NCBI GenBank assembly: GCA_033964015.1
Contig: CM066915.1
Span: forward strand, 12,423,573 to 12,487,572
Length of the DNA: 64,000 nt
DNA from: Scolanthus callimorphus
Taxonomy: Eukaryota; Cnidaria; Anthozoa; Actiniaria; Edwardsiidae
Reading direction: 5' to 3'
Positions 701-16,090 of the stretch are shown here, one piece after another. Position 1 is the first letter of the stretch. Each line of letters begins with the position of its first letter. A program made the position numbers and the translations under genes. A model generated the notes under the pieces. It did not search any database. It was not told the DNA's origin and was given only the letters and a program-made list of their open reading frames with translations.

Positions 701-1720
701 CCTAAAGCTACGCGCGCCAGCGGATGCTTCATACTTAAGAGAACTGTATTGATCTGATTTTTGAACGCGCGTGCAGTGTCCGTCCGACGTCCCTGCACCA
801 CCACAGGGTTCCCATCAAGAAAGAACAAAAAATTGAATATCTCGAGAACGGAACATCGCTAGGTTACCAAACTTGGGTTCACTTATGTTAGAGACAAGGG
901 GGGTGCACCACCAAGGTCACGTGGCATGACGTCATCAATGGCGTCAGAAAAAAAACTAGAAAAGTCAATATCTCGAGAAGGCAACATCGCTAGGCGACCA
1001 AACGTGGGTAGAGTTTTCTTGTGAAGGAAAGGGGATGCACTAGTGGTCTGACGTCATCAAAACTAGGAAAGTCAATATCTCGAAAAGGCAACATCGCTAA
1101 GTGATCGAACTTGGGTTAAGTTATCTTGGAGGCAAGGAGGATGCACCACTAAGATCACGTGGCATGACGTCGTCGTTGACGTCATCATAACATGTACCTC
1201 GATGACAGTAGGAGTGTTGATTCGAGCTCCGCTTTTAGGCAGTGCCTAAATCTGTATATGATCTTAGGAAGAGATGAACCGCAGACAGCCAAACTTGGGG
1301 AAAGTTGTCTTAGTGGCAAGGAGGGTGCAACTGCTTAGTCCCGTGACAACTGCGTGGTCACGTGATCGATGACGTCATCAAACGAGAAACGGTATATATC
1401 TTGGGAAGGGATGAACTTCAGAGAACCAAACTTGGGTGAAGTTGTCTAAGTGGCAAGGGGGTGCGAAGGCGTGGTCACGTGGTATGACATCCATGACGTC
1501 ATCAAACGAGAAAAGTATATATCTTGGGAAGGGATGAACCTCAGAGAACCAAACTTGGGAGAAAATATCTAAGTGGCAAGGGGGGTGCAAGTGTTTGGTC
1601 ACATGGTATGACGGTGACAGGCTATATACAATGGCAACCTATTGTCTCCTTAACAAAGAAAAATATAGTGTAACCGGGTGCTCCGCTTTTAGTCATTGGC
1701 TAAATCTATATATTATCTTA
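700..1720. repeat. Satellite of ~110-bp units rich in CRE-type palindromes
   Basis: Diverged tandem units share ATATCTCG, an AACATCGCTA or GAACCAAACTTGGG block, GGTCACGTGG and TGACGTCATC. The array ends with a block like CTCCGCTTTTAG..GGCTAAATCTATATATTA (about 1223-1250 and 1681-1715), which also ends copies near 44880 and 50460. It is the same family as 43765-44885. No coding potential is supported; short open frames across the repeats are by-products of the periodicity. Confidence 0.7.
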
Positions 1721-2329: not shown

Positions 2330-2516
2330 CGTTTCTTTGTATCGTTTCCCAAAATATCTGTTCCTGATTTTCGAAGGTCTTTTAAATCACGAAAACAAGT
2401 GATTTCTTCCGAGAAATGCCAGTCTGGAAAGGAGACCGTAAATGCACTTTTCATGATATTTTCAGTGGCTTCGATTGCAATGAGATCGCACAATACAGTC
2501 AAATTTTAGTAGAAAA

Positions 2517-2572
2517 GGAACACGGCTAAAGGGAACAAGGTAGATGGGAACATTTGTTCCTAAGTATGTTCT
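2517..2572. repeat. Left GGAAC motif cluster
   Basis: Three GGAAC motifs and one GTTCC lie in about 55 bp (aaaGGAACac, agGGAACaa, tgGGAACattTGTTCCt). The same motif fills 11454-12466 on the other side of the three-gene block, which is why this point is proposed as the left limit of the element. Confidence 0.5.
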
Positions 2573-2636
2573 CCAATGCAAGGTCTACTCTGACATATTC
2601 GGGATACCTGTGGTCAACTGAGCTGAATTCTCAATA

Positions 2637-4160
2637 AACAAACAGTGGGTTTGACTGATATAGCGTGTATGATACTTCCAGTAACTATGGTCTGTTTTAT
2701 AATATTATATTATAAGACAGACCATAGATACTGGAAGTTTCATACACGCTTTATCAGTCAAATCAGTCATATCAGTGTTTATTGAGAGAAATATTTTCAC
2801 CTTCAAAATTCATTAAAGAACTTTATCAAACACTGATCTGACTGATTTGACTTATATAGCGTGTATGACACTTACAGTAATTATGATCTGTTTTTAATCA
2901 ATTATACTGTAAGTATCATACACGCTATACCAGTCAAATCAGTCATATCAGTGTTTATTGAAAGAGATATATATTTTCACCTTAAAATTGTTTAAAGAAT
3001 TTTATGAAACACTGATATGACTGATTTGACTGATATAGCGTGTATGATACTTACAGTAACTATGATCTGTTGTTAATCAATTATACTATAATAAATTATA
3101 ATTATTAATATAATTATTAAATTAAATTAATTCATGAATTACTAATGAAAATTAATAATTATAATTTATTATACTATAATTGATTAACAACAGATCATAG
3201 ATACTGTAAGTATCATACACGCTATATCAGTCAAATCAGTCATATCAGTGTTTATTGAAAGAGATATATATTTTCACCTTAAAACTCTTTAAATAATTTT
3301 ATCAAACACTGATATGACTGATTTGACTGATATAGCGTGTATGATACTTACAGTATAATTGATTAAAAACAGATCATAATTACTGTAAGTATCATACACG
3401 CTATATCAGTCAAATCAGTCATATCAGTGTTTATGAAAGAGATATATATTTTCACCTTAAAATTGTTTAAAGAATTTTATCAAACACTGATATGACTGAT
3501 TTGACTGATATAGCGTGTATGATACTTACAGTAACTATGATCTGTTGTTAATGAATTATACTATAATAAATTATAATTATTAATATAATTATTAAATTAA
3601 ATTAATTCATGAATTACTAATGAAAATTAATCAGTATAATTTATTATAGTATAATTGATTAACAACAGATCATAGATACTGTAAGTATCATACACGCTAT
3701 ATCAGTCAAATCAGTCATATCAGTGTTTGATAAAATTCTTTAAAGAGTTTTAAGGTGAAAATATATATCTCTTTCAATAAACACTGATATGACTGATTTG
3801 ACTGATATAGCGTGTATGATACTTACAGTAATTATGATCTGTTTTTAATCAATTATACTGTAAGTATCATACACGCTATATCAGTCAAATCAGTCATATC
3901 AGTGTTTATTGAAAGAGATATATATTTTCACCTTAAAACTCTTTAAAGAATGTTATCAAACACTGATATGATTGATTTGACTGATATAGCGTGTATGATA
4001 CTTACAGTTATTATGATCTGTTTTTAATCAATTATACTGTAAGTATCATACACGCTATATCAGTCAAATCAGTTATATCAGTCTTTGATTATGAAATATT
4101 CCATACATACCATAGCTGCTGAAAGTATCATACACGCTAAATCAGTCAAACCCACTGTTT
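2637..4160. repeat. Array of seven palindromes with iteron-like arms
   Basis: Seven hairpin units lie at about 2637-2785, 2829-2954, 3006-3252, 3306-3433, 3485-3728, 3780-3905 and 3957-4083, followed by a half unit to 4160. Each arm reads, in order, three 9-bp direct repeats of the form GACTGATWT, then AGCGTGTATGATACTTAC and AGTA; the other arm is the reverse complement. Two units (3006, 3485) have a long AT-only centre. The units are separated by ~50-bp spacers (GAAAGAGATATATATTTTCA...), one of which (3729-3780) is inverted. The outermost arms share AACAGTGGGTTTGACTGAT. Inference: a replication-origin or recombinase site array. Alternative: nested miniature transposons. Confidence 0.8.
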
Positions 4161-4540
4161 GATTAAAATCATTCAAGAATCGTGTCTGTACGATGACAAT
4201 GCATTTGTCTCAACAAACAGTGGTTTTGACGGGTATAACGTGGATGGGCTGATCACCATGGTTACCATGGGCTGATTTAATATTAATGATATTATGATTA
4301 TAAAACAGACCATTACAACTGGAAATATCATGCGCCCTATAGAGTGAAAAAGTCGTTCAAGAATGAAGTCTAGAAAACGCCAATAATTTCTATCAAGAGC
4401 AGTTTCTTGATTTTAAGCTGATTTGGCAAAATGGAAATAGCAAACTAAATGACATTTCAATTGATCAGAATGCGTATTTGCATGTAAACTCTGGCAGCGG
4501 CCTTTCTAGGAATCTCAAGCTTTTGTCAAATTAAGGTAAC
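4160..4540. other. Spacer with a decayed palindrome unit
   Basis: A degenerate copy of the palindrome arm is visible (AACAGTGG..TTTGACGGGTATAACGTG near 4215, and CAGACCATTACAACTGGAAATATCATGCGCCC near 4305 in parts). The remainder is unrecognised AT-rich DNA without a supported gene. Confidence 0.4.
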
Positions 4541-5020
4541 CGATTTGACAAGAAATTCATTAGGAAGGAATGCCGAGTCATTTGTTTCTCATTCACTTCC
4601 TCGCAAAACATACCAGTTCATCAAATATTTCAAAGCTGTACACGTCAACTGCTTGCTTATACAGTTGAACTGAATGAACACGTGAACAGCTTGTGTAAAG
4701 AATCGGCATTAACGAGATTCGTTTTGGAAGGAAAGCCGCACGGCACCTTAACATGTTCAATTACATCACCACTTCTCGCAAAACATCAACTTGTTTTAAG
4801 AGCAACAATTGAACAATGATTCTCTAGATGTACACGTGAACGGTGTGTATAAAGAGTTGACATTGGCAAGATTTTTTTTGGAAAGGAATGCCCAAGCATG
4901 GCACCTTAATTAGTTCAGTTACATCACCACTTCTCACTTAACGTCAACTAGTTCATCAATATCTTTGAAATGGAACAATTGAGCATGTTTCCCTAGATGC
5001 AAAAGTGAAATACTTGCATA
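4540..5020 (+). promoter_or_regulatory. Diverged ~165-bp tandem repeats upstream of the helicase gene
   Basis: Three diverged units share TTGG-AAGGAA-GCC, GGCACCTTAA, TTACATCACCACTTCTC, a CATCAACT block, and ACACGTGAAC followed by GTGTATAAAG. They end just before the TATA-like box, so they may be promoter or replication-control repeats. The role is inferred from position only. Confidence 0.5.
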
Positions 5021-5034
5021 TATTATTTGAAGTG

Positions 5035-5042
5035 TATATAAG
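5035..5042 (+). promoter_or_regulatory. TATA-like box of the helicase gene
   Basis: TATATAAG stands about 55 bp before a good splice donor (GTGAGT at 5097) and 158 bp before the proposed start codon. It would place transcription start near 5065 and give a short non-coding first exon. Confidence 0.55.
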
Positions 5043-5096
5043 TGCCAGTGCCAAACCGGTCCTATCTCTTCCAGTACACGGCGCTGAAAAGTGAAG

Positions 5097-5192
5097 GTGA
5101 GTGCTTTGCCATTTGGAAATTATAACCCGATATTTGTTGTCTAAAACGCTCTGTCCAAGATTTTTCTAACATGATACTTTGCTATTTATCAG
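5097..5192 (+). other. 5' leader intron of the helicase gene
   Basis: The donor is GTGAGT at 5097 and the acceptor TTTATCAG ends at 5192, directly against the ATG at 5193. The upstream AAAGTGAAG is a plausible exon end. Predicted from splice consensus only. Confidence 0.5.
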
Positions 5193-8100
5193 ATGTACGG
5201 ACGAAATAGACCGAATCCCCAACTGAACAGTTCCGTGATTCGAGCAGAAATTCAAGCCAACATTATACCGGTTGTGGAGAAGAGGTGTACGATCATCGGT
5301 GTGAAATGTATTTGGAGACTTCAGGGTGGGAAGCAAGGAATTATCCAAGCTTGGCATGACATTGTGGCGAAGAGAATGAATGCGACAGTACTGTGGCGCG
5401 TGTAAACGGCGTCTGTTTTTTCGTTTCATCCATTTCCACATATGAACCAAAGTCGTCAAGTCGCAAAAATGACGAAAAGGAAGGCGAAGTCGAAGATTCA
5501 AGCGAGAAAGAAGATGCAACTCAATCATTCTCTGTCCCGAGTTCCCAGAAGTCACAGCACGCCAAAGAGGCTTCTGAAAAAAAGCGATATCCAGCAATCA
5601 CCTATTGGATTGCGATTGAATCAGTGAATGGGGCACCAGTTTCGCCGTCAGTAGTACAATCTGCTCTACTTAAGTGCAATGTCGAAGTAAATCCCACTAG
5701 GGCATGCCCCAGAAACAAGGCCAAGCATTCTTCAGAGCTGTTAAACAAAATCTGCCAAGCGATGAAAGATCATAAGAACTCGTATATGGCCGACTTATTA
5801 GAGGAATCATACTCACATTGTTATCAAGAGTTGTGTGACGAATTGACGCACGGCGGAATGAACATCACAAAGAGGATTATAAGGTGTCCAGACAAAGTTG
5901 TACGGATGACTGTCATAAAGCCCGAGTACATTGGATTACTTCAAGCCAGTCTAAAGAAATTGAAAGACAAGGGACTTCAAATTGACGTATTTCTGGCCAT
6001 GGAACGTGATTCTCAAGCACTAGGATCTGGCGATAAAGAGAATATTGCTGCACAGCCCATGCTAGGTAGCGAGATTCTGGTCCTATGCAACGATGTGGAG
6101 AGATTTCTCAGAACTCTGAACTTCGCCGTCAACAAGGGAGACGTTTATCGACTCCAAGAAGGGGCATCATACACGTACCAGCGCGCATGCTCCATCGAAG
6201 AGTTCTTACACAGCCTCCTAGGGAACAAACAGTTTAAAGATCGACTCTTGAAGAATATGTCAAAGCTGCTGACTGTACTGAAGCACCCCGACTCGCAGGC
6301 GATACAGCAATTTACGATTGATCACGATCTAGTCGAAGTAAAGAACCACTGGTTTTGGTCTTTCAAGGCGAAAAGTTTTCTTCATGGTGTGATAAATCGT
6401 CACGACGTGGGAAAGGTATCCACAAGAGCATTTGTCCCTTATGATCACGAAATCGAGGAAGGTCCAAAGTACTTCAGAGAAATAATAGAAAACAGTTTGG
6501 ACGAGCAAGAGGCAGCCGAGCTATGCAAGGATTTCCTCAACTTATTCATACTGAACAAGCGCGACCACAAGGATAAGATCCCTTGCCTTATTGGTCCATC
6601 AAACAGTGGCAAGACGTCCGTGCTTCTCGCTACTACCAAGATCATAGATCAGACGAGAGTGGCAAAAATCGTGAAGCAGCGCCAGTTCAACAAAGCTCTA
6701 ATCGACGAAAGCACGCAACTAATTAACCTTGATGAAGCGACAGTGTCGTTGATGGATCTGGATGATTGGAAGGTGTTATTACAGGGAGGTTTATCAGCAC
6801 ACGACACAAAGTACAAGACGGCAAAGCCCTTCATCAGTCGTGCACCCATATTCATAACAGCACAAAAAGAGCTCAACTTTGGCGAGGATGTGGACAATCA
6901 AGCCATGAACAACAGGTAATTACTCTATTTTATCATAGTCCCTTGCGTCTATTTCCACTATCAATCTTAAAAGTAGGTTATTCTCAACTTTGGTCGATTG
7001 CTAATCTGAAATTGGCTGGTGAATCAGAGACCACTTTTGGAAAATCGTAGACGATTAGTGGCTTAAAGTTGTCGTTCCATTTTCTAGGTTGAAGAAATAC
7101 TACTTTAAGGCGCTTCCAAACGTGTCGAGTAAAGCTGCACGTTGGATTAGAGAACACCCTATGCATTGCATCGTATGGGCAACGAGCATGGCACGAAGAT
7201 GTGCTGATTCTGAAGATGATGAACGTGACGTGAGCTACGGGCAGCGAGGATTGACGACCTCAGAACTTCGGAATATCTTCGAGCATACACTGGATCACGG
7301 TCAAGGGAACGAAGGACGCCAAGAATCATCTGATGACGAGGGGGACCAAGAAGGTATGTTTTTTAATAGTTTTTTTTTCAGCATTGGATTGAGTGAAATA
7401 GAACATCTGAAGTAGTTTGCTGTGACTTGAAGGGTAAAAAGACACCTAATAATTTGAGAACTTGTATCGAGCTGTTTTGCTTACTCCATTCTAGACGATC
7501 TAAACGAAGAGGAGGAAGAGGAGTCCGAAGAAGAGGAGCCCGAAGAAGACGCCGACGACGTTTTGGTCGACACACAACTCACTGATCGCGTAGACGCTCT
7601 CGAGAGAGCAAAATCAAAAAGCCTATCAGAGCTGGACTTTGGGAAAGCGAGAATGATAGAGGCCATGGCAAGCTGTGCTCAGGAAACAGTAGACGAGGTG
7701 AGGCAATCTGTGAGACAAATGCATGCGGGGCAACGCGAGAGAAGGCGACGTTACCTGATTGAACTCGGCGTGGATCAAGATTTAGTGACAGATTTCCTAC
7801 CATCTAACCCAATCGAAGAACTCCCTTCCCAGCTTGAACGGGCTGCTTCGGAATGCCAAAGACAGCGAGATGAAGGAAAGCGGGAAAATGAAGCGAAGGA
7901 GGCCAAGGAAAAGGCGGACAGTTATTTCAAGATCCCTTGGGTGATTGGAAAAGAGAGGGAGTTGCGAGAACTTCAGAAACAAGAGCACGAGTGTCCCGTT
8001 CACGACGTCAAGCAGGCCCTTCGATACAGGATGGAAGTGGCGTCCGAGTCTCTTCGCCTGCGCTTTAATGAAGAGAACATACCAGGCTTGAAGAAGTACG

Positions 8101-8668
8101 TTCTACAAGAGCGAAAGAAAATAGCACTTGCGATGAAATGGGTGAGCGAAGATCAAGTGGAAGAGATCATAAGCCCGTGGGATCCCTTGCCGTATCCCCC
8201 CGGACGTCAGGGTGGTGAAAGCGACGGCGAGAAAGAAAGCGACGAGGACGAAGGCGATCTACATCAGCCACCGATGATGAGCCGCGAGAAAGAAATAGGT
8301 GAGTCCCGTTAAGGTTATGCCAACATTTTCTCGATTTCTTAAACTTTGCATAGAAAAGACCATGTGTTAAACTGTTATAATCCGTTGTTTGATTATCAGA
8401 ACTACCGGAGTCACTTGTGTCAAGTGGATTTGCTGAAGGAGACATAGTGGAAACGCCTCCAAGTCAGTCCATTTTGACAGCGGAAGGTCTACTGCGCGAG
8501 TCACCTAGCAGAAAAAGAGGGGCGCCGTTCGAGGATTACACGTCGTCGCAGGCGTGGGGCGGGATCAAAGTCCGATCCCAACCCGTTAAGACGAAGAAAG
8601 CAAGGCCTTCCAGCAAGCTGCCTCGGGGTCAAACGCAAATCGGAAATTTTTTCAATAAAGCAATGTAA
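5193..8668 (+). CDS. SF3 helicase (replication initiator-like) with C-terminal PIP box; spliced
   Basis: The proposed exons are 5193-5399, 5453-6915, 7088-7353, 7495-8298 and 8400-8668, giving about 1002 codons with phases that agree across all junctions. The SF3 ATPase core is clear: Walker A GPSNSGKT (6593-6616, residues ~450-457), Walker B LINLDEA (Asp/Glu at residues ~496-497), motif B' GGLSAHDTKYKT, sensor APIFITAQ, and a conserved NNR spanning the 6915/7088 junction. SF3 helicases unwind origins for small DNA viruses and elements. An acidic run (~635-670) and a charged helical stretch (~760-790) follow. The last residues contain QTQIGNFF, a full PIP box (Q-x-x-I-x-x-F-F, 8630-8653) expected to bind PCNA. 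The N-terminal half is unrecognised; no HUH nuclease motif is seen. The 53-nt intron (5400-5452) is short and least certain; the other three introns are well supported. Confidence 0.88.
8654..8659 (+). terminator. Poly(A) signal overlapping the helicase gene end
   Basis: AATAAA lies inside the last codons, seven bases before the stop at 8666. A second, variant signal ATTAAA lies at 8749-8754. Confidence 0.5.
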
Positions 8669-8769
8669 ACTGAAAAGTGGCTATAACGAATCGAGAGTGT
8701 TGTAAAACGAAATGTTGTTAAAACGAATTTAAGTAAATTGAGCAGAGCATTAAATACGCGTGAAAATAT

Positions 8770-8775
8770 TTTATT
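8770..8775 (-). terminator. Poly(A) signal of the minus-strand genes
   Basis: TTTATT on the plus strand reads AATAAA on the minus strand, about 70 bp after the cyclin stop codon. The convergent genes thus end within about 110 bp of each other. Confidence 0.55.
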
Positions 8776-8843
8776 GAGCTTTTCTCACAATGAGCACTGA
8801 GCTATTATTAAAGTCCTATCATGTCGTAATATTCCAGGGGCCT

Positions 8844-9170
8844 TCAATTCACTGATTCCAGTACTTTAAGCTCCTCCTCTATGATATCTGTTTTTGGCAC
8901 CGGTGTAGAAACCATGTCCATAAATAAGGAGGTTCTTTCGATATCACTGTTTTCCAGTTTGATGGCAATGAACAGACACGCCAAGATCAGCTCCCTTAGA
9001 GTAGACTTTTTTCGGTTTCTTGTCCGGTTTAAATGGCGCCAGAGCAAACTTTCCGCCAAAATGGCCGTTGATGTTGGAAAGCTGGAAACGCAAACTCCAC
9101 GTATAAACTCTCCAGCAAATTTGATATCTCGTAGCGACAACTCGGGATGCTTATCAATAACAGCGTCCAT
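8844..9170 (-). CDS. Small single-box cyclin homologue (108 aa)
   Basis: The protein matches the N-terminal cyclin box in layout: an early helix with EFIRGVCVSS, a helix with ILAESLLWRHLNRT, then the hallmark LILACLFIAIKLEN (residues 61-74), where Lys71 and Glu73 stand for the conserved K..E that cyclins use to contact a cyclin-dependent kinase. It ends EEELKVLESVN, where the first cyclin fold normally ends, so there is no second box and no destruction box. Expected role: bind and activate a host CDK to favour S phase; this is inference. It starts at an ATG 154 bp downstream of the recombinase stop on the same strand and has its own promoter motifs. An additional upstream exon cannot be excluded. 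I recognise the fold from the sequence pattern, not from an alignment. Confidence 0.72.
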   Translation of the reverse strand: MDAVIDKHPELSLRDIKFAGEFIRGVCVSSFPTSTAILAESLLWRHLNRTRNRKKSTLRELILACLFIAIKLENSDIERTSLFMDMVSTPVPKTDIIEEELKVLESVN

Positions 9171-9273
9171 CTGAGCTCCTCGGCGTTCAACAGCAAATGA
9201 GGCCTAACACGCAAAATGTTACAGCTCTAATAGTTTCGCGCTGACTACCGGCATGCAAAGGGTTAGCAGCGTC

Positions 9274-9296
9274 CCAATAAGGGAAAGGGCGCCAAA
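9274..9296 (-). promoter_or_regulatory. E2F-like site and CCAAT box before the cyclin gene
   Basis: Minus strand TTTGGCGC (plus 9289-9296) matches the E2F consensus TTTSSCGC, and ATTGG (plus 9274-9278) is an inverted CCAAT box. Both lie 104-126 bp upstream of the cyclin ATG. This pairing is typical of S-phase genes; function is inferred. Confidence 0.5.
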
Positions 9297-9324
9297 ATAA
9301 GCTTTAATAAATTCCAACTCTACA

Positions 9325-11100
9325 CTATTGGCGAAACTTGGCGATCGCTCTCTTTTTCAACGAGTCTGGGGACCTCCCTTTCTGGAAATGAAACTCGGAA
9401 TCTCTTAGAATGGCTGTCCACTGCCCATACCCGTACCTTCTCAATCCGGCCTTGAGATATTTGTCCTCGTCTTGGGTGAACAACATGGCCTTTTTTCTAT
9501 TGCATGTACGATCGATGTTCGCCACTTTGAAAGTGCGCTGGCGTGAAAATCTTGGCATTTTATTGAAATTGAACTCACGTTTTACTGGCAACGCCTCCTC
9601 TGCACTTTCTACTTCTTCTGTAGAACCGCTGGACAGATGGTGCGGATCCTGTTCTTGAGAGGAGGCTGACGAGATGTCTGAAAGCCTTGAAATCACATCT
9701 TGTTCCAGCTTTGTTCCCTTGTCGCCATGTAGTTTATCCAAGCATTGGCGCGCCTTCGTTGCGACCTCTCGAGATCTTTGCTTTTGATAATGCACTCTTG
9801 CTACAACCGAGCTGTGTTTTTGATCCTCTGAAACCGAGTCTTGCTCTCTTGCGCTAAGCTGGTTGGAACTTGCAGTCTCGACGATCTGTCGATAGCGCGT
9901 CGGATGAACGTACTTTCCAATGGCATCGAAGACCAGTTTACTCATGAGCTCACCGAGCTTGTTGTGCTGCCCTCCGTTTCTCGTCATTAGCACGTAATCG
10001 CAAGCTGGTTTCTGCAGAGGGCGAATATGATTGATATATCCATCCAAAACTTTCATGTTAGTGTCGGTCAAAAGGAGCGAGTCAAAACCGTATTTCCCTG
10101 CCGTTTTAAACATTTTCTGGTCAATGAATCCCCCATTTGTTTTCGCTGTGCGAACCATGTCAACTGTGAGGTACTGATACGTCATAGGTCGGGATCCCTT
10201 TACCTTGATAAACAAGTAGACGGCAAGAAATTTTGTGGCAAACGATAAATCCCCCGAGCAAACACTACCTGGTTTGTCCCTGCATTTCTTGAGCACTTCT
10301 TCATATCGAGGAAGGTAGTAAGAGACAACTTCCAGTAGTTCGTCGAGCGATGCCCAGTGACCCTTGGCTTCTAAAACATCGATGTCCAGATCGCTGGTCC
10401 ACTGCAATCTCATCATCTTCGACACTGTTCTTCGAACTCTTTTCAAGTACGTCTCGGTGACTGACAAACCTCTCGCCACTGTTTCCGACAACCCTTCGCT
10501 AACTTTTCGGAATTGCACTAGCTCCCCAATAGCGTCCAGGTATCCTAAACGTCCAGCATGTCCAAGGCTCCACGTGTCCTGCATCGTATCAGCAAATTTA
10601 AAGAGAAGGTTAGGAGAGCATAAGCTATAGTCGACATTTTTCCAAGTCAGTTCGTCTTCGTCATCACAACAAAATCTGAGAAACTTAAGGCATTTACTGA
10701 CAGTTTGTTGAGCTTTTCGATCGCTCTTGCACCCCCCGCCACTCCCAGTGAGCCAAGAAAGGAATTCTTTAGCAATTGCACCTGATGCTTCAAAGGTTGG
10801 AATCGATTTGCTTGCGCTGGTGGATTCGGATTTCTTTGCGTTTTCATTACAGTCGTGAACTTGACTAGCCTCAATTTCTGAATTGCTTGGTTTATGATCA
10901 AAATAGAAGAACCAACCGTGCTTTCTAGTTACGTGTTTCCTGCAGCCTCTTTGAGTCCCAAAACCATCGTGATCGCACGCCTGCACTGGGCAGTGAAAAA
11001 GTCCATCGGATTCATCTTTCTCCAAGTGAAGTCTTTTCGGTTTGGGCAAAGCATTTGCAATTTTAGCCCAGTCAACTTGCTTGTACTTTTTACTCGACAT
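9325..11100 (-). CDS. Tyrosine recombinase with C2H2 finger and Myb/SANT domain (591 aa)
   Basis: One uninterrupted exon. Residues 37-61 form a C2H2 zinc finger (C37, C42, H56, H61). Residues ~105-230 are helical and resemble a core-binding region. The catalytic part shows the tyrosine recombinase set: Arg304 in GSRPMTYQ, a beta-hairpin Lys (332 or 336) in FKTAGKYG, H399-P-T-R402, His429 in DQKHSS and the nucleophile Tyr438 in ARVHYQKQ, nine residues after His429 as in lambda integrase. Residues ~538-590 are a Myb/SANT (telobox-like) domain with FTQDEDKYLKAGLRRYGYGQW. The enzyme would cut and rejoin DNA through a 3'-phosphotyrosine link to integrate, excise or invert the element, with two extra DNA-binding modules choosing the site. 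Cryptons have related recombinases, but this zinc finger plus SANT layout differs from the ones I know. Confidence 0.85.
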   Translation of the reverse strand: MSSKKYKQVDWAKIANALPKPKRLHLEKDESDGLFHCPVQACDHDGFGTQRGCRKHVTRKHGWFFYFDHKPSNSEIEASQVHDCNENAKKSESTSASKSIPTFEASGAIAKEFLSWLTGSGGGCKSDRKAQQTVSKCLKFLRFCCDDEDELTWKNVDYSLCSPNLLFKFADTMQDTWSLGHAGRLGYLDAIGELVQFRKVSEGLSETVARGLSVTETYLKRVRRTVSKMMRLQWTSDLDIDVLEAKGHWASLDELLEVVSYYLPRYEEVLKKCRDKPGSVCSGDLSFATKFLAVYLFIKVKGSRPMTYQYLTVDMVRTAKTNGGFIDQKMFKTAGKYGFDSLLLTDTNMKVLDGYINHIRPLQKPACDYVLMTRNGGQHNKLGELMSKLVFDAIGKYVHPTRYRQIVETASSNQLSAREQDSVSEDQKHSSVVARVHYQKQRSREVATKARQCLDKLHGDKGTKLEQDVISRLSDISSASSQEQDPHHLSSGSTEEVESAEEALPVKREFNFNKMPRFSRQRTFKVANIDRTCNRKKAMLFTQDEDKYLKAGLRRYGYGQWTAILRDSEFHFQKGRSPDSLKKRAIAKFRQ

Positions 11101-11150
11101 CTTTCTTGGGCGGAGAGCAGGCGAGAAATGAACATATACTTACCTGACAG

Positions 11151-11370
11151 TTATTTGTATACGATCCATGTGTCCCTAGAGTACGAAAACCCTTATTGGC
11201 CAATAGCAAGGCAAATAAAGTGAGCGTGTTCAAACTTGCCCTGAACATGTTGTAGCCCCTTTGGGAGCCTGACTGTATCTTGTCCAATAAAAAGGCGAAG
11301 GTGCGCATAATCAAATGAGCGTGCACAAACTTGCCCTAACATGTTTAGGCGGAGTTCTTGCTCAAACATG
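11151..11370 (-). promoter_or_regulatory. Promoter region of the recombinase gene with tandem repeat
   Basis: The block CCAATA..AAGGC / GAGCGTG-CAAACTTGCCCT-AACATGTT occurs twice, about 110 bp apart (near 11195-11250 and 11290-11350). The repeat carries CCAAT boxes. TATACAAATAA on the minus strand (plus 11151-11161) could serve as a weak TATA element 50 bp before the ATG. Confidence 0.4.
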
Positions 11371-11453
11371 CTTAAACCGATCCGATCCTATCCTATCTTA
11401 CGTCAGTTATTGTGGCCTTTATTTTAGAACACTCCCCATCGCTTTAAAGTATA

Positions 11454-12466
11454 AGGAACACTGTGTTCCCAAATATGCATGAAGGGAACAAAGCGTTCCT
11501 TTTAAATTCGGAACGCTTTGTTCCCAAGATCCATATCTAAGACCAATACGTTCCTTTAGTGAAAAGGACCGATGTCGATCATAGGAACTCTTTGTTCTTA
11601 ATTGTGTTGCAGTGGAACAAAATGTTCCTATTGCTAAAGGAACAATATGATCCCATTTGCTCATATGGGAACAAAGTGTTACCTTTTTTAGGGCCACCTT
11701 GTTCCTAATTCCTGTTTAATTGGGAACAGCACGTTCCCTATTTTCACACAAAGGAACTTCACATTCCCCTTTTGTAAGGTCCAATTTGGTCATGGGAACA
11801 GAATTCCTGTTTAATTGGGAACAGCACGTTCCCTATTTTCACACAAAGGAACTTCATATTCCCTTTTGTTAGGTCCAATTTGGTCATGGGAACAGAATTC
11901 CTGTTTAATTGGGAACAGCACGTTCCCTATTTTCACACAAAGGAACTTCACATTCCCCTTTGTTAGGTCCAATTTGGTCATGGGAACAGAATGTTCCTAA
12001 TTGGGAGTGCGTTAAGGAACAAAGAGTTCCTGATTGAGCTTGTCAAACTCGGTAAATGGGAACAGGTGTTCCCAATTACCTCAAAGGAGAACCAAACATC
12101 GAGATAGGAACTTAGCAGTTCGGAACTGTTAGTTCCTTAGTGCTGTGAAAAGGAACAATGGTTCACATTTGACTACATTATTGGGAACAAAACGTTCCCT
12201 TTTTTCAAAAAGGAACGTCATGATTAGGAACGTGAGTTCCTAATTGTACATAAAAGGCCCAGCTTATTTCTATGTTTAGGAACAATACGTTCCTTTGTTA
12301 TTACAAAGGACCGTTTGGTTCCTAATCAGTGATACTTTTGTTCCGATGAACGCAAAATGTGTTCCTATTCGTGGGCATAGGGCTGTTCGTATATTTAAGA
12401 AAAGGAACAATTGTTTGGTTCCTAATTTGATTATAGGAACAAAGGAACAAAAATAGAGGAACGGAC
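11454..12466. repeat. Dense GGAAC/GTTCC array
   Basis: By hand I count about 49 GGAAC or GTTCC motifs in roughly 1 kb, often as facing pairs (GGAAC...GTTCC) 10-40 bp apart. Between about 11715 and 11995 the array is an ordered tandem repeat of a ~90-bp unit (GGGAACAGCACGTTCCCT, AAAGGAACTTCA, GTCCAATTTGGTCATGGGAA) in three copies; elsewhere the spacing is irregular. It is non-coding. Candidate binding array for the zinc-finger/SANT recombinase or helicase of the element, or its terminal region. Confidence 0.8.
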
Positions 12467-12639
12467 CCCTTTCAATTGACTGATTGTAGCACTCGAGCAA
12501 CTCGGTTTTTATCCAAAAAAACGATCAAGTTATCTGCCCTGGAAGCTAACCTAGTTTTAGTCCAAGTTTTACAGCAAACTTCAAAGCAAGTAAGCAGAAT
12601 TTCGGGTTTCTCTCATTTGGGAAACGTATAGGAATATTC

Positions 12640-13130
12640 ACACAGGGAGGGTACAATCTTGCTGATGTAATGCAGAGGTTAACAAAGCTAGAAAACACAC
12701 ATAATGCCACTGTTGAGACGGCTCTGCAAGAAGTGAGACACTACCTGAGGGCGCCAGCGCCGCCGCCTCCGCCACCACCGACGATAATTAACTTTCCGAG
12801 TAAGGTCGACGACGACAATAATTTACTTTCCGAGTGAGTTGGTTTGAGTTGAGTCCACTCTGAATGTTCTTGTTTCTTTGTAATATTCATACAGGGTGGG
12901 AACAACCTTGCTGATGTAATGCAGAGGTTAACAAAGCTAGAAAACATACAGAATGCCACTATGCAAACTCCATTTGCATTGGTAATAAACTCCCTGGGGA
13001 TTGTAATATAAAAGAAGTATTATCCTAACAATCCCTTGTCATTCAGTCAAGCAGCGAAAGAGAAACGGTTGTCTCTTCGCAGGACTTGGTACCATCAACC
13101 CGATTCAACTCGTCTAGGGATGAAGAACAA
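12640..13130 (+). repeat. Retroelement-like fragment, first copy
   Basis: GTTGAGACGGCTCTGCAAGA and the ~115-bp block ATGCAAACTCCATTTGCATT... (12962-13078) recur at 16506-16790. CTTGCTGATGTAATGCAGAG repeats internally (12658 and 12909). The open frames are broken. It appears to be a rearranged gag-type or leader region of a retroelement. Confidence 0.45.
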
Positions 13131-13705: not shown

Positions 13706-15367
13706 AGAAATTATTTATCTATTATATTTATAAGTACCTGTAGTGATAATATTGTTATCTGAATTGAATGCTAATGTGATACTGAGCTATGAAATACCTG
13801 TGAGGTTTAAAATTTTTATTTGCCTGTGGGGCTTGAATATGAAATACCTGTGAGGTTTAAAATTTTTATTTGCCTGTGAGGCTTGAATATGAAATACCTG
13901 TGAGGTTTAAAATTTTTATTTGCCTGTGGGGCTTGAATATGAAATACCTGTGAGGTTTAAAATTTTTATTTGCCTGTGAGGCTTGAATATGAAATACCTG
14001 TGAGGTTTAAAATTTTTATTTGCCTGTGGGGCTTGAATATGAAATACCTGTGAGGTTTAAAATTTTTATTTGCCTGTGAGGCTTGAATATGAAATACCTG
14101 TGAGGTTTAAAATTTTTATTTGCCTGTGGGGCTTGAATGTGAAATACCTGTGAGGTTTAAAATTTTTATTTGCCTGTGGGGCTTGAATATGAAATACCTG
14201 TGAGGTTTAAAATTTTTATTTGCCTGTGAGGCTTGAATATGAAATACCTGTGAGGTTTAAAATTTTTATTTGCCTGTGGGGCTTGAATATGAAATACCTG
14301 TGAGGTTTAAAATTTTTATTTGCCTGTGAGGCTTGAATATGAAATACCTGTGAGGTTTAAAATTTTTATTTGCCTGTGGGGCTTGAATATGAAATACCTG
14401 TGAGGTTTAAAATTTTTATTTGCCTGTGAGGCTTGAATATGAAATACCTGTGAGGTTTAAAATTTTTATTTGCCTGTGGGGCTTGAATGTGAAATACCTG
14501 TGAGGTTTAAAATTTTTATTTGCCTGTGAGGCTTGAATATGAAATACCTGTGAGGTTTAAAATTTTTATTTGCCTGTGGGGCTTGAATATGAAATACCTG
14601 TGAGGTTTAAAAGTTTTATTTGCCTGTGCGGCTTGAATATGAAATACCTGTGCGGTAAAAAAATTTTATTTGCCTGTGAGGCTTGAATATGAAATACCTG
14701 TGAGGTTGAAAATGTTTATTTGCCTGTGCGGCTTGAATATGAAATACCTGTGCGGTAAAAAAATTTTATTTGCCTGTGAGGTTGAAAATTTTTATTTGCC
14801 TGTGAGGCTTGAATATGAAATACCTGTGAGGTTGAAATTTTTATTTGCCTGTGAGGCTTGAATATAAAATACCTGTGAGGTTGAAAATTATGTTTTGCCT
14901 GTGGGGCTGAAATATGAAATACCTGTTGTGATTAAGCACACTGAATACGTTGCATATAAATGAAAATAAATGTAGTATTTAATAATAATAATAGACATTT
15001 TGATAGCGCTTATATCAGCGCTTATATCAGGCTTATATCAGGCAAATAAAAATTTTATATTTAAAATATATATTTATAGTTCTGGATCAGGATGAGTAAC
15101 TCCTGCAGGTCTATACATACTCTGGTAGGCCTCCAGACGTCCTGTTCTCAGGTGTGTTTGAAGTTACTCCCTCCTGGTTGGGAACCCCTAATTGCATAAT
15201 GCTGTTACACAAGGTGCAGATTCTGTTTGAAATGTTATGGTTGTTGCATGTCACCTTTGGGTGGGATGCACTCTGGAAGGGGTTTCCGACCAGGAAGGGA
15301 TCATTGTAGTTATTAGTATAGAATATATTTCATATTTACTGGAATTGCAATTTATTCGTTATTGTAT
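13706..15367 (+). repeat. 50-bp minisatellite with alternating (100-bp) higher-order unit
   Basis: From about 13791 to 14905 the unit GAAATACCTGTGAGGTTTAA + AATTTTTATTTGCCTGTGRG + GCTTGAATAT repeats about 22 times. GGGGCTTG and GAGGCTTG mostly alternate, so the true unit is a dimer. Copies decay at the right edge (14600-14930). The following 15060-15367 is a non-repetitive part that is itself duplicated at 15780-16090. Confidence 0.9.
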
Positions 15368-16090
15368 TAGAAATTATTTATCTATTATATTTATAAGTAC
15401 CTGTAGTGATAATATTGTTATCTGAATTGAATGCTTATGTGAGGCTGAACTATGAAATACCTGTGAGGTTGAAAATTATTATTTGCCTGTGAGGCTTAAA
15501 TATGAATACCTGTGAGGTTGAATTTTTTTATTTGCCTTTGAGGCTTGAATATAAAATACCTGTGAGGTTGAAAATTTTTATTTGCCTCTGAGGCTTGAAT
15601 ATGAAATACCTGTGAGGTTCAAAATTTTTATTTGCTTGTGAGGCTTGATTATCAAATGCCTGTGTGAGGTTGAAAATTATTTTTTGCCTGTGGGGCTGGA
15701 ATATGATATCCCTGTTGTGATTAAGCACACTGAATACATTGCATGAATAAATGTAAAATAAATGTAGTATTTAAAAAATATATTTATAGTTCTGGATCAG
15801 GGTGAGTAACTCCTGCGGGTCTATACATACTCTGGTAGGCCTCCAGACGTCCTGTTCTCAGGCGTGTTTGAAGTTACTCCTTCCTGGTTGGGAACCCCTA
15901 ATTGCATAATGCTGTTATATGTGCACAAGGTGCAGATTCTGTTTGAAATGTTATGGTTGTTGCATGTCACCCTTGGTTGGATGCAATCTGGAGGGGTTCC
16001 CGACCAGGAAGGAATCGTTGTAGTTATTATTATTAGTACAGAATATATTTCATATTTACTGGAATTGCAATTTATTCGTTATTGTATTAG
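15368..16090 (+). repeat. Second copy of the minisatellite-bearing segment
   Basis: AAATTATTTATCTATTATAT at 13706 reappears at 15368, followed by a short diverged 50-bp array (15450-15715) and then the same TTCTGGATCAGG-TGAGTAACTCC segment. The first copy therefore has an expanded array and the second a contracted one. Confidence 0.75.

Follow-up and report, generated by a model that had tools for sequence, protein, structure and literature searches.

What kind of unit is formed when a superfamily 3 (SF3) helicase gene, a small cyclin gene and a tyrosine recombinase gene lie side by side in the genome of a sea anemone? The locus that raises this question lies in a 64,000-nucleotide stretch of Scolanthus callimorphus DNA (GCA_033964015.1, contig CM066915.1, positions 12,423,573 to 12,487,572), which at its full length is called the window here. 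The first-pass annotation of this stretch had proposed a self-replicating element at 2510-12470. Comparison of tandem copies, in which window position 12635 is joined to 2341, replaces that span with ~2341-12632, and all three of the proposed genes were located within it by their frames, Pfam matches and motifs. The segment belongs, as a single copy, to a mobile element family of high copy number whose gene trio is constant; in the S. callimorphus genome (596.8 Mb) most copies fall in a size class of 8-11 kb. We consider it probable (roughly 0.7) that the family represents a new kind of integrating, self-replicating mobile element of animals. A literature search found no description of an element carrying this trio.

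Linkage across the genome

Matches in the animal's own genome number at least 75 for the recombinase, at least 150 for the cyclin and at least 93 for the SF3 exon (81 loci once merged); these genome figures refer to the matches listed and are hence lower bounds. All loci with a listed partner show a single geometry, with the recombinase and cyclin on one strand and the SF3 gene convergent to them. Of the 150 listed cyclins, 57 have a listed recombinase 110-651 bp upstream on their own strand, and 48 have a convergent SF3 locus 1455-2238 bp downstream. Both partners accompany 18 of the 150, and none shows another geometry alone. Counted from the other genes, a listed cyclin stands beside 57 of 74 recombinase loci and 50 of 81 SF3 loci. 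The layout persists in subfamilies whose SF3 is only 35-69% like that of the window. The trio as chance neighbours was rejected on the single geometry of all copies with listed partners. Linkage in other copies, on which the first-pass annotation had made its proposal depend, thus survived within the animal's own genome, with one order and orientation across diverged subfamilies.

The recombinase, its attachment sites and insertion

The recombinase is encoded on the minus strand (9325-11100) in one frame of 591 codons, and comprises a zinc finger, a catalytic region that is putatively Cre/Xer-like and, at its C-terminus, a Myb domain (Pfam E 2.4e-6). Its catalytic set consists of R304, K332, H399xxR402, H429 and Y438. 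In an alignment of 28 sequences (the window's and 27 relatives), R304, K332, H399 and R402 are kept throughout, as are C37, C42, H56 and H61 of a C2H2-type finger; H429 is kept in 26 and Y438 in 27. The relatives number 807, and Porites lobata, Nematostella vectensis and Oculina patagonica are named among the best 120 of them. In young pairs (versus L002 and L004-L006), the ratio of nonsynonymous to synonymous substitution rates (dN/dS) was 0.17-0.32, from few changes.

Candidate sites for this enzyme are found at the ends of the element. The left attachment end (2341-2355), defined by the tandem join to ~12635, consists of AT (2341-2342) followed by the inverted arm CGTTTCCCAAAAT (2343-2355). 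The right end (12615-12632), placed by junction comparison, consists of the arm ATTTGGGAAACG (12615-12626) and a spacer remnant, TATAGG (12627-12632). In a C7 tandem junction the two form a perfect inverted repeat, ATTTTGGGAAACG - 8 bp - CGTTTCCCAAAAT, and a subfamily with a recombinase 65% identical has a similar junction with the arms TTTTGGGGAATG. Inverted arms of 11-13 bp around a spacer of 6-8 bp are typical of tyrosine recombinases (PMC3212892), and the junctions, as candidate sites, have this organization. A pattern covering both arm types, with one mismatch allowed, gave 63 sites, versus 0 for the reversed control. Among the best 50 of these 63, 31 have no listed recombinase and 8 are not orientable; the class of arm tracks the recombinase clade in all 19 testable sites, the first arm occurring in 9/9 with the near clade (at least 80% identical to the window recombinase) and the second in 10/10 with the far clade (64-66%). 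Spacers are of few types, and point in the same direction relative to the element in 42 of 42 orientable sites. No joined site of this type was present in the 1500 bases upstream of recombinase loci L001-L030, in which subfamily the site lies farther out.

The boundaries with host DNA are sharp. Three of 20 sampled 5'-end pieces (L037, L043, L050) contained no end, nor did 9 of 17 3'-end pieces, whose length had been guessed. Over 18 5' ends, the last two bases of the spacer are T-A in every case and are the element's; the first, which is the target's, varies (A4, C6, G4, T4); position 2 is T in 17 and position 3 is C in 16. Nine 3' ends all begin with A-T, followed by C at position 3 in eight, C or T at position 4 in eight, and mixed bases at positions 5-8. 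Element and target thus have a core of about T-C-Y in common, within which the exchange takes place. In one insertion (L051/L064), for example, the two ends are GATT-ATCT-TATACG and AACG-ATCT-AGACGA. No longer target duplication was seen in nine two-ended insertions, among which a TTCC-repeat case (L047, L066) cannot be judged. The host flanks are rich in C and T (69%, n=18, and 82%, n=9, versus 50%; 0 of 5000 resamplings each, against a background of window host DNA only). A paralogous, uninterrupted host sequence at 12868-12900 resembles an empty site and fits the T-C-Y rule, being a paralog and not an allele. Integration by the tyrosine recombinase, as originally suggested, is strongly supported by the putative attachment sites and the insertion boundaries, and the proposed comparison of aligned copies yielded element ends, sharp boundaries and an empty-site-like paralog.

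Some further features lie near these ends. The host sequence CTTGCTGATGTAATGCAGAGGTTAACAAAGCTAGAAAAC occurs twice beside the insertion (window 12650-12960), and at L045/L070 (C5:1907000-1916500) the insertion target itself resembles an attachment site (GGGAAAC...GTTTCC), a possible host pseudo-site. A perfect (GGA)145 repeat (1896-2329) directly adjoins the left element end, and about 28 copies of a 50-bp tandem repeat (CCTGTGAGGTT/GCCTGTGAGGCTT) occupy 13788-15715, outside the element. Both the (GGA)n array and 13788-15715 were considered as termini and rejected, since the tandem joins fix the ends elsewhere.

The SF3 helicase and the cyclin

The SF3 gene lies on the plus strand (5194-8668), with exons at 5194-6915, 7088-7353, 7495-8298 and 8400-8668 separated by three in-frame GT-AG introns that are predicted from sequence alone. 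The three frames had been described as apparently intact, which holds for the recombinase and cyclin; the SF3 frame of the window copy has a single interruption, which falls between 5194 and 5393. The frame is open for 581 codons in a sister copy (L032), and two other subfamilies encode SF3 in an undivided reading frame, of 936 and 1028 codons. Throughout an alignment of 18 sequences the Walker motifs GxxxSGKTS and DE and a late R are invariant, the last being read as a putative arginine finger. The papillomavirus E1 model PPV_E1_C matches 9 of the 18 at E <= 0.01 (best 1.3e-7), P0004 scoring above the curated cut-off. Among single genome frames searched with Pfam, L071, L072 and L073 gave no E1 match, and L076 gave one at 2e-5, below the cut-off. 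In the PDB, the best helicase chain for the SF3 profile was E1 (1tue, E 0.0084), the top row being a low-complexity match to a Mediator subunit; a first SF3 profile had produced weak matches only (NS1, E 0.033). Relatives of SF3 sit on contigs of up to 1.67 Mb.

At the C-terminus of SF3, a motif pattern located a PCNA-interacting-box-like sequence, QTQIGNFF (8630-8653, plus strand). Such a tail is present in nine of nine genome subfamilies by a relaxed pattern and in four by a strict one; it recurs in six nearer database relatives (three strict) and is terminally absent in six further ones. The background of the strict pattern is 0.0017 per shuffled tail, and 0 of 124 tails of other proteins carry it. 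L073-L077 encode the tail in a frame of its own, taken as a probable later exon.

The cyclin gene (8844-9170, minus strand) encodes a single cyclin-box protein of 108 codons, which matches Pfam Cyclin_N with an E of 2.5e-8 and 34.1 bits, against a cut-off of 23. The match region is free of stops in 148 of the 150 listed cyclins. In an alignment of 27 distinct sequences, dN/dS between sister subfamilies was 0.12 (L071/L077) and 0.06 (L072/L075); for the window cyclin it was 0.12 versus L029 and 0.09 versus L016, and in eight further comparisons synonymous change was saturated, with dN at 0.15-0.28. SF3 pairs likewise gave a proportion of nonsynonymous differences (pN) of 0.19-0.35 at saturated synonymous change. 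These values show a signature of purifying selection on the cyclin and on SF3. A host cyclin captured once was also considered, and is rejected by the at least 150 copies listed and by the constraint.

The constraint bears directly on a more conventional reading, in which a Crypton-type transposon is moved by its recombinase alone, SF3 and cyclin are passengers, and copies multiply through chromosomal replication, excision and reinsertion. Passengers would not keep their order and constraint across subfamilies so diverged in SF3. The likeness to Cryptons (CryptonA) is that of a DNA element moved by a tyrosine recombinase (YR) in animals; YR DNA transposons have been reported from a cnidarian, with circular intermediates proposed (PMC3212892), and here arrays are formed even by a subfamily that lacks the helicase domain. 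However, the animal Cryptons described in the available part of that paper have neither a C-terminal domain nor terminal repeats, whereas the present family has a Myb C-terminus, inverted arms, SF3 and a cyclin. DNA YR elements are, moreover, defined in the available part of PMC4157794 as carrying a YR domain only. Pfam YR or Crypton-type models match none of the 28 recombinases at E <= 1, which tells against a Crypton and, equally, leaves the recombinase assignment itself outside those models. Taken together, a Crypton with passengers is quite unlikely. The family is set apart from Cryptons by their descriptions, and a named Crypton entry in Repbase may match the recombinase.

Repeat arrays and tandem copies

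The two motif arrays noted by the first-pass annotation on either side of the genes were confirmed, the left one by Tandem Repeats Finder (TRF) and repeat cores and the right one by a shuffle test. The left array (2646-4090) is an origin-like, long-period arrangement of inverted and direct repeats, with the core TCATACACGCTATATCAGTCAAATCAG in seven copies per strand within three mismatches (cores at 2646-4072; TRF 2717-4042, score 2142), and it includes very AT-rich blocks at about 3073-3187 and 3567-3661. All five subfamilies examined (the window, L033, L078, L079 and L080) have a long-period array upstream of SF3, towards the attachment site. The array unit differs in each, and 100-bp windows fall to 15% G+C or less, most weakly in L080 (14-15%). 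An array with AT-rich DNA upstream of SF3 is like a replication origin. The joined attachment site is present in L033, L079 and L080 and was not found in L078. In L078 (C2:27515400-27519400) a (TTA)n tract at 2661-3025 lies about where the joined site is expected, and this tandem pair is spaced 366 bp wider than the next one. The right array (11455-12462), upstream of the recombinase, is built of GGAAC/GTTCC motifs, many of them 10 bp apart as palindromes; 49 occur in 11400-12480, versus a mean of 3.0 and a maximum of 9 over 200 shuffles.

Many copies stand in tandem. Sixteen head-to-tail arrays with spacings of 7.6-14.5 kb hold 45 of the 150 listed cyclins, and among the matches listed 29 of 30 neighbouring cyclin pairs less than 16 kb apart share their orientation. 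These arrays are more simply accounted for if elements integrate next to a resident end, or if circles recombine with one another, than by duplication on its own. Unequal crossing-over could also enlarge them, which weighs against the circular route; in its strict form, this alternative derives all arrays and joined sites from such exchange between chromosomal copies. In some arrays (C1:4171211-4199485) the spacing is indeed almost uniform and the scores are identical, as local amplification predicts. The first joined copy would still require that two ends be fused exactly, so as to yield a perfect site, and one array (C7:25495058-25547473) mixes cyclins 99% and 76% like the window's, so that crossing-over as the sole cause appears very unlikely.

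A different kind of exchange is suggested by the neighbours L003 and L010. Their DNA is 94-100% identical over the 5' array and the greater part of the recombinase gene and 90% identical in the last block of that gene; beginning at the recombinase stop, identity drops abruptly to 51-71%. One module, for integration (site, array and recombinase), has apparently been exchanged against another, for replication (cyclin, SF3 and repeat array).

Gene content and the viral alternative

The statement that the element has no capsid or polymerase gene agrees with its frames, none of which is of capsid or polymerase size. Beyond the three genes, no frame of more than 150 codons occurs in the window element or in the complete 8.8-kb L033 unit, a spliced capsid gene being not wholly excluded. 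Capsid, packaging ATPase and polymerase B were not detected in the frame lists of these two units or by Pfam on seven window frames, and reverse transcriptase, the hallmark of DIRS and Ngaro, gave no frame or Pfam match in the element.

The gene content is central to whether the family could be an endogenous small DNA virus, or a reduced relic of one, with an E1-like helicase and with capsid genes lost or packaging provided by a helper. Small DNA tumour viruses push the host cell cycle, as a cyclin might, and the helicase is indeed papillomavirus-E1-like. E1-like Rep and capsid genes, with high-copy integrated fragments, are reported from sea anemone data in the available parts of the source (PMC11071296, survey preprint). 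The shortage of further frames counts against a virus, as do searches of IMG/VR with single-sequence and profile queries of SF3 and the recombinase, in which no relative was found, and the arrangement and constraint that endure across many chromosomal copies. A viral origin of this kind is therefore considered unlikely. A phage collection searched with SF3 gave no match.

Relation to other replicating and integrating systems

In the loxP and FRT sites, 13-bp inverted arms enclose an 8-bp asymmetric spacer, and the systems to which they belong, phage P1 Cre/loxP and yeast 2-micron FLP/FRT, replicate as circles. The present family shares with them arms of about 13 bp, an 8-bp spacer and a tyrosine recombinase; unlike them, it is an animal element, chromosomal in many copies, with its own SF3 and cyclin and with loosely matched C/T-rich targets. 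To papillomavirus, polyomavirus and parvovirus replicons it is likened by an E1-like SF3 and by repeats adjoining AT-rich DNA, and it differs from them in lacking a capsid-sized frame and in having a recombinase with attachment sites, a PCNA-box-like tail and a separate cyclin. Tn916/Tn1549-type elements are bacterial and conjugative and carry over a spacer from the last flank, whereas the spacer here is conserved within a subfamily. Some polintons and polinton-like viruses carry a tyrosine recombinase or an SF3 helicase, and they too are large integrated elements, but no capsid-, ATPase-, protease- or polymerase-like frame was seen in this one. One meldvirus with a Yrec is recorded in the available part of PMC11071296.

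Several observations weigh against a self-replicating element. It is known from genome sequence alone, and its circles, replication and cyclin action are inferred. Among the matches listed, 25 of 81 SF3 loci have no partner. Some of the gaps in linkage reflect partners outside the matches listed: the unit at C1:4172001 (L033) has all three genes, its cyclin being absent from the matches listed, and the SF3 locus at C13:7229394 does carry a cyclin (L073). The window SF3 exon alone matches no Pfam family at E <= 0.01, so that its identity follows from motifs and relatives; its structure was predicted with low confidence (pLDDT 38.7), and the relaxed tail pattern has no shuffle control. Foldseek with the recombinase model returned nothing at E <= 0.001, and in that model the catalytic region is of modest confidence and superposes with a high root-mean-square deviation. 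A sequence search of solved PDB cyclins gave none matching the element cyclin at E <= 0.1. Handfuls of changes yield a dN/dS of 0.60 for the very young cyclin pair of the window and L002, and of 1.9 for the recombinase versus L003 and L031. Finally, some copies can do without the helicase, since one studied subfamily keeps the recombinase and cyclin but no longer has the helicase domain. In L079 (C1:16888000-16893000; 763-1669, minus strand), with units of 8.25 kb, SF3 is reduced to an N-terminal piece and the PCNA-box-like tail. This 8.25-kb subfamily is a likely satellite form, which would borrow the helicase of the full element.

Proposed life cycle and its significance

The more specific proposal, which we favour with less assurance than the general one, is a new class of integrating episome: a circle replicated by its own E1-like initiator with host PCNA and polymerases, an own cyclin that sets the cell cycle, loxP-like movement and helicase-less satellites. 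The recombinase would excise the element, or join it, as a circle with a 13-8-13 site, and the circle would be inserted into C/T-rich DNA or into the ends of copies already present, little homology with the target being required. While the element is circular, SF3 would bind the repeat array and melt an AT-rich block, and its C-terminal tail would recruit host PCNA and polymerases, whereby copy number could rise outside the chromosome. The opening of an own origin and the borrowing of host PCNA fit the conservation of SF3, its PCNA-box-like tail and the origin-like arrays. The small cyclin may bind a host cyclin-dependent kinase and favour or time DNA synthesis; the conserved cyclin box suggests that it could push the cell into S phase. 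Since no capsid-sized frame was seen, the element most likely spreads in the germ line, with passive transfer as a possible rare addition.

If this account is correct, the mobile elements of animals would include a type otherwise found chiefly in bacteria and yeast, a plasmid that integrates and brings its own initiator and Cre-like site, and a cyclin carried by a mobile element would link selfish DNA directly to the control of the cell cycle. The arms that track the recombinase clade, together with the T-C-Y core, would constitute a natural set of paired animal recombinases and sites, and would make the mechanism directly testable.

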